Below are positions 36,608 to 38,191 of a stretch of DNA of 64,000 nt, in pieces. Below the pieces are notes generated by a model. The model ran no database searches. It saw nothing but the letters and a program-made list of their open reading frames with translations, and had not been told where the DNA came from. The stretch is from Anaerolineales bacterium (GTDB lineage: Bacteria; Chloroflexota; Anaerolineae; Aggregatilineales; UBA2796): NCBI GenBank assembly GCA_015075625.1, contig JABTTZ010000003.1, forward strand, positions 186,001-250,000, written 5' to 3'. Position numbers and translations under genes: made by a program. Position 1 is the stretch's first letter. Every line of letters begins with the position of its first letter.

Positions 36608-37020
36608 ACTGTACCCTATCTGAAAGACAACTTTGGGGGTATCTAGGAATTTTGACAAGGCAGGTGAGAGTGTACGCTATTGGTTCAGAACCTCTATCCC
36701 CCTGCCCCCTTTCCCCGCAGACAGGGAAAGGGGGCAGGGGCGGGCGGACGCCTCAGGGTTCCTCCCTACGGGGTGCGGGCGGGATGGCGCGTCAAAATAT
36801 CAATATAGGCTAGGGTCTGTTGACCGTGTAATTCCCGTAGGGGCGCCATACCTTGCGCCCATCGCCGCCCGCCGCTAAAGCAGCGGGCTAGGAGTAGCCA
36901 CCCCTTCGGGGCTTGGAAGGCATTGTCGCACCGGTTGTTCTACACCTCTTCACCCCAAAGGACTTTTTTGTTTGCACTTAGGGCAGCGAAAAGTGTGGCA
37001 CATGTACAGGATAGGTAGGG
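36608..37020. repeat. Intergenic region with family A and family B repeats
   Basis: About 410 bases with no coding region. A perfect 17-bp inverted repeat is at 36699-36715 and 36724-36740 (CCCCTGCCCCCTTTCCC and its complement, 8-base loop); this is the best copy of family A. A family B element, GCCCGCCGCTAAAGCAGCGGGC, lies at 36867-36888 (20 of 22 shown positions paired). CCACCCCTTCGG at 36899 matches the piece before 13350. TTGACA at 36652 has no matching -10. The segment separates the sugar kinase start from the DarTG end. Confidence 0.75.
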
Positions 37021-38191
37021 CTACGTTTCCAACAAAAACACCCCGGTAAGCTGTTCTGGTGGAATATCTTGTTCACGTGGCAGGTAGATATACACAGGAA
37101 TAGGAAGTTTTGCCATATATCGGCACAGCAAGCGCCCAACATCCTCCCACCGCAATTTTCCCTCGCCACACCCTAAGGCAGGGAGCGCCAACGAGGTGAT
37201 CCCCTCTGTTTCATAGTGGGTGATAATCCATTCTAACCCGCGTTCAATCCCCTCAATATCAGAATGTTCCCGCCAGTGGCGTTTTGTTGGAAACAATAAA
37301 AACCATTTGGCGTTGTTTACCTTCCAATTGGGGCTGCCCCCTCTCCCCAAGTTCATCGTCAAGGAATGTCTCCCACTTGTAGAGATAGGGTGTTCCCATC
37401 GTAAGGGGATTCTTTTTGCTTTTGCATTGATCTTGGTAGACGACGAACACATCGGGAAATTGGTATTTTGCTCTGGAGGCAAGCCCTTTACCCATGATCC
37501 CAACCGTGTTTACACTAATCGTCAGTGTTTGCGCCTGAGAAAAGAATATATCTCCATTCACTAAGGCTAGATGCTTGGTCAGTGGAATCGTTGTATGAGG
37601 GGCGAAAAAGAGATTCGGTTCGGGCGTAACGGTGATATCTTTCTTCGGAAAGGGAAATTTTTCCCTCACGGACTGAGATGCCACATAAATTCCCTCAATA
37701 AATTTGGCAGGTATCCTGTCGGGGACAAGACATTCTGCCATGATTTTTCGCTTGGAGCCATCGTTAGAAGACCAGTACGCCTCGTCCATCAGGGGTTTAT
37801 AGGTGGCAACAATGGGCAACCCTTCATTGGGCGGCAAAATATCGGAATCGCCACTGGCGGCATTTCCAGTGGTGACAAATACACCGGGCAAATTCAGGAT
37901 TTTTGCAGAGATACTCAAAACAACGATTTCTTCCTCGGATAGTTCCCGAAGGACGCGGTAAAGCATTACATTTCGGGCGTGGAAATACACATTGGCGTAG
38001 TCCCATAATGAGCGATCATCAGGCATTTTCCGTTTCTGGCGCTGAGTGACGATTTGCTCATCATAGATTCCCGCAGTGGGGATATGCTCCTTCGCCACAA
38101 GCACATGTGACAAAATACCCCGTTCTAAGATGGAAGGGACATTATTGATGTGTGTGATGTAATAAAATGCTTTGGGGGCAACGTTCGCCAT
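37021..38191 (-). CDS. darTG: DarT toxin fused to DarG macrodomain antitoxin, frame-shifted
   Basis: Starting at the ATG at 38191 (MANVAPKAFYYITHINNVPS), the first part is a DarT (DUF4433) ADP-ribosyltransferase that modifies thymidine in ssDNA. It shows YYITHINNVPSILERGIL, SLWDYANVYFHARNVMLYRV with the NAD-site Arg region, and the catalytic-Glu motif IMAECLVPDRIP. A macrodomain follows (LALVNGDIFFSQAQ, ISVNTVGIMGKGLASR), like DarG that removes the mark. The frame breaks at a run of five C (37337-37341); removing one base joins GERG to SPNWKVNNAKWFLLFPTKRHW and gives 389 residues to the stop at 37021. Sequence error, true mutation or recoding are all possible. Confidence 0.75.

Follow-up and report, generated by a model that had tools for sequence, protein, structure and literature searches.

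A DarT-macrodomain fusion gene with a one-base frame change, and the single-chain family to which it belongs

Why does an Anaerolineales bacterium carry a DarT gene that runs directly into a macrodomain and then loses its reading frame by a single base? The gene lies in a stretch of 64,000 nucleotides of contig JABTTZ010000003.1 (positions 186,001 to 250,000), hereafter the window. On its minus strand, frame A (38191-37259) covers the whole of a DarT domain and then enters a DarG-type macrodomain, the remainder of which stands in the neighbouring frame B, ending at 37021 (Table 1). Specifically, frame A matches Pfam DarT (E 1.2e-38), the PADLOC DarT profile and positions 4-64 of PADLOC DarG (E 6.1e-14), and frame B (ORF 37503-37021) matches Pfam Macro (E 8.1e-7) and positions 64-148 of PADLOC DarG. 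These are two halves of one macrodomain joining across the shift, far beyond chance. The original prediction is thereby borne out in its outline, namely DarT motifs that lead into a macrodomain in one frame, a continuation in the next frame and a total of 390 codons, as the distance from the ATG at 38191 to the end of the stop at 37021 is 1171 bases, or 390 codons plus one base. The C5 run to which it had assigned the shift is present as part of a purine tract, but the exact site is less certain: the alignment to relatives switches frame at this tract, and the crossing cannot be placed more tightly because frames A and B are both open across it. Read without a shift, the gene would yield a product that does not reach the catalytic lysine of the macrodomain.

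Table 1 Features of the fused gene, in window coordinates
Feature	Position	Strand	Evidence
Frame A: DarT (about residues 8-200) and start of the macrodomain (from about residue 206), up to the tract	37342-38191	minus	Pfam, PADLOC, 280 bits to PDB 7omu
Purine tract with the frame crossing, including the C5 run (plus strand, 37337-37341)	37337-37348	minus	Both frames open; frame change in the alignment
Out-of-frame tail of frame A, non-homologous to the family, stop at 37259	37259-37336	minus	Match to 7omu stops just past the tract
Frame B: remainder of the macrodomain, containing the catalytic-lysine motif (FPTKRHW) and the LPALGCG loop	37021-37336	minus	PADLOC DarG E 6.5e-27; 132 bits to PDB 7omu

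Single-chain DarT-macrodomain proteins of about 390 residues are an established and widespread one-gene family. The best PDB match of both frames is one and the same chain, 7omu ('Macro domain-containing protein', 406 residues), which has the same domain order and length as the window gene but, unlike it, is one open frame. We take 7omu to be the Thermosipho africanus DarT-DarG fusion of Schuller et al. 2021, and its natural form was found in a Thermosipho genome (locus L088). The 7omu chain carries Ala at the position of the catalytic Glu, which is Glu in all 79 natural relatives, so the depositors appear to have inactivated the toxin. A scan of the phylum gave ten intact single-frame relatives of about 390 residues, and a search for other DarT-macrodomain fusions in a one-genome-per-species collection gave 195 loci that encode a relative, among which 79 of the 80 kept (a selection biased toward well-conserved copies) are one open frame. 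The kept loci come from Chloroflexota, Cyanobacteria, Poribacteria, Planctomycetota, Acidobacteria, Thermosipho and others. The view of the fusion as something unusual does not survive these results; its premise, that DarT and DarG are normally separate genes, is true for the canonical systems and not for the fused family, and the close homologues, far from being two separate genes with no in-frame join, show the opposite arrangement. Only the break sets this copy apart, since the joined design is already known with a solved structure. Text searches of the literature found no paper on a DarT-macrodomain fusion.

In the alignment with 79 relatives, R51, Y69, M76 and E153 of DarT are all present in the window gene, and the Lys of FPTKRHW is present in frame B, as in 79 of 79 relatives. 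The gene thus has the DarT domain and the joined macrodomain with catalytic Lys of the 7omu-type family, while the one-base change in the tract deprives it of the single open frame of about 390 codons. Judged by its domains, catalytic residues and length, it is a predicted member of this family, and we file it as a broken copy and not as a working member because the single open frame is missing. The relatives found reach at most about 57% identity, with one IMG/VR relative (L126) at 58% to the query. The window protein ends right after the macrodomain, its NCBIfam DarG match stopping at position 151 of 338, and every intact relative aligned likewise lacks the toxin-binding C-terminal domain of DarG. 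The NCBIfam scores of the window gene (DarT 90.7 bits, equivalog cut-off 150; DarG 92 bits, cut-off 250) are both under the equivalog level, as are those of the intact relatives (DarT 86-110 bits, DarG 147-153 bits). Membership of the canonical two-gene DarTG2 system was rejected on the joined genes, the missing DarG C-terminal domain and both missed equivalog scores.

Canonical DarTG2 (PMC5179494, PMC7003065) has in common with the window gene a DarT and a TARG1-like macrodomain with the catalytic lysine motif, but it consists of two genes and its DarG C-terminal domain sequesters DarT, both features being absent here. Work on enteropathogenic E. coli showed that the macrodomain of DarG is by itself enough to remove the mark and rescue cells, while the C-terminal domain sequesters the toxin (PMC7003065). 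By extension from the separate enzymes, for which these activities have been shown, the N-terminal DarT of the intact fused proteins would ADP-ribosylate a base in single-stranded DNA, and the macrodomain that follows in that chain would reverse the modification. In the neighbourhood comparison no partner gene recurred next to the fused genes, and the idea of a separate dedicated antitoxin was therefore dropped; together with the absence of the DarG C-terminal domain, this makes the macrodomain in cis the likely antidote of the family. CapRel also holds toxin and antidote in one chain, although it is an unrelated enzyme whose antidote domain folds back on the toxin and releases it on sensing a phage protein, and fused toxin-antitoxin proteins of this kind are phage sensors (PMC13423816). 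The intact family matters more than the broken copy, which is itself of little weight: it is predicted to combine writer and eraser of DNA ADP-ribosylation in one gene, and it offers a setting in which to test what keeps such a protein harmless before it is needed, and on which base the mark is placed. Additionally, a serine/threonine-kinase-like frame stops 5 bases short of the fusion in six loci, among them a Nostoc locus (L060, 2804-3995), and this constant spacing suggests cotranscription.

The fused family further differs from DarT2 in the residue expected to contact the base. At the position aligned with H119 of DarT2, 78 of 79 fused proteins have Asn, as does the window gene (N110 of frame A, 37862-37864), whereas the DarT2 of DarTG2 has His, and two separate Chloroflexota DarT genes (L204 and L205) also have His in the matching motif. 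The guanine-specific DarT1 of DarTG1 likewise has Asn (N104) at its base-contacting position, but its antitoxin is a NADAR protein encoded by a separate gene (PMC11543638). The fused proteins thus carry the Asn of the guanine-specific type, yet joined in the same chain to a macrodomain of the thymidine type. From the residue pattern, the base specificity of the fused DarT family may differ from that of thymidine-specific DarT2.

What, then, does the break in this copy represent? It is most likely either ordinary decay or a sequence error. Our main reading, to which we give a probability of roughly 0.55, is that a horizontally acquired member of the single-chain family recently lost its reading frame, by one base, within a variable macrodomain loop. 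The GC content of the gene is 47-49%, against 56% for the contig, and the terminal branch of this copy is the longest of 80, though none of the relatives found exceeds about 57% identity. The Chloroflexota scans gave 28 intact and 4 damaged copies, the window copy included, so that 3 of the 31 other copies, or about 10%, are damaged. One (G126) has its DarT interrupted by a stop, codon 63 of the stretch translated, another a frame change in DarT and stops in the macrodomain (G238), and the third an internal deletion (G029). The lesion site differs in each of the four damaged copies, which indicates ordinary loss and no programmed signal. In the DarT half of the window gene, all 30 columns conserved at 97% or more are unchanged, and in the macrodomain 4 of 61 near-invariant columns are changed, a number tied for the most among 89 sequences without being an outlier; two of these changes, R to W and L to E, hit columns invariant in 79 relatives. 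Selection thus seems to have held on this copy until recently. Toxin made without a complete antitoxin should, on the original prediction, be lethal. If the break is biological, the protein from frame A would stop short of the catalytic lysine and leave the antidote half dead, and the cell would presumably survive because the gene is silent, the truncated protein is unstable or DarT is inactive in this setting.

The alternative that comes closest, which we hold to be a serious possibility though short of even odds, is that sequencing or assembly introduced the shift in the purine tract and the organism carries an ordinary intact fusion. The lesion is a single one and falls in a tract rich in G; on both sides of it the sequence keeps its coding character and catalytic motifs; and once the shift is set aside, the conserved Leu-to-Trp spacing equals that of most relatives. 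The full conservation of the toxin half, with all its catalytic residues, also favours an error, since an active DarT beside a dead antidote would be selected against. The surrounding assembly speaks for recent decay. We ran a codon-usage frame scan over 450 kb of the same contig (C3), window included, with 426 coding segments, and it raised one candidate (C3 255174), which was rejected because it is two adjacent genes, an ATPase and an apparently DprA-like one. No other clear frame break was found in the 450 kb at a sensitivity of about 50% (of 200 simulated frame changes of each kind, 104 insertions and 97 deletions were recovered); the scan missed the window gene itself, a short one with deviating composition, and similar genes would escape too. 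In the same stretch, 1124 G/C runs of five or more stand unbroken in long open frames, and 75 of these are runs of seven or more, which also counts against an error here. On the basis of these 450 kb, frame errors would hit at most roughly 1.4% of comparable genes. Set against the roughly 10% of damaged copies elsewhere, this favours real decay, and we regard decay as somewhat likelier than error.

It is very improbable that programmed ribosomal frameshifting, or slippage during transcription, occurs at the tract to give some full-length protein and set a ratio of toxin to toxin-antidote. The tract is G-rich and both frames are conserved beyond it, but 79 of 80 relatives need no shift and those displayed lack the tract. 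Moreover, the RNA past the tract folds like shuffled sequences (z 0.16) and the tract holds no stop codon that would stall a ribosome, so that neither the conserved shift site nor the stimulating signals of a programmed-frameshift gene are seen. Error, inactivity and frameshifting had all been proposed at the outset; we keep that list, except that neither the relatives nor the RNA folding support the programmed form of the last. Slightly less credible still, and without support in these results, is a lineage-specific slip site where ribosomes or RNA polymerase would produce full-length protein as a fixed fraction, with one gene thus yielding toxin and toxin-antidote. That two separate proteins assemble into a split macrodomain can be dismissed almost entirely: although frame B stays open as far upstream as a TTG at 37503, its homology boundary has no start codon, a start at 37503 would add about 57 non-homologous residues, and the split would fall inside one fold, with no relative showing it.

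The flanks of the gene and its possible mobile origin were also examined. Viral origin was rejected, as no close viral relative of the window protein was found; one phage record gave a weak match, and plasmid matches were below 60% identity and mostly annotated as two separate genes. The L126 relative is a full-length fusion (positions 1-1173) with 58% identity to the query, and it lies at the end of a putatively viral IMG/VR contig of 34.5 kb. In the sister species, the contig ends beside secF at the site compared for an empty state. Within the gene, 14 of the 15 bases at 37334-37348 are identical to the core (CTGCCCCCTTTCCCC) of the dispersed repeat that is also found downstream of the gene, which may be coincidence; we do not claim a repeat insertion, as the resemblance covers only 15 bases, the tract is unique and the spacing matches that of relatives. 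This downstream stretch, 36640-37020, consists of dispersed repeats with 68 matches in the genome, mostly 82-88% identical, and within it lies a perfect 17-base palindrome at 36699-36740.
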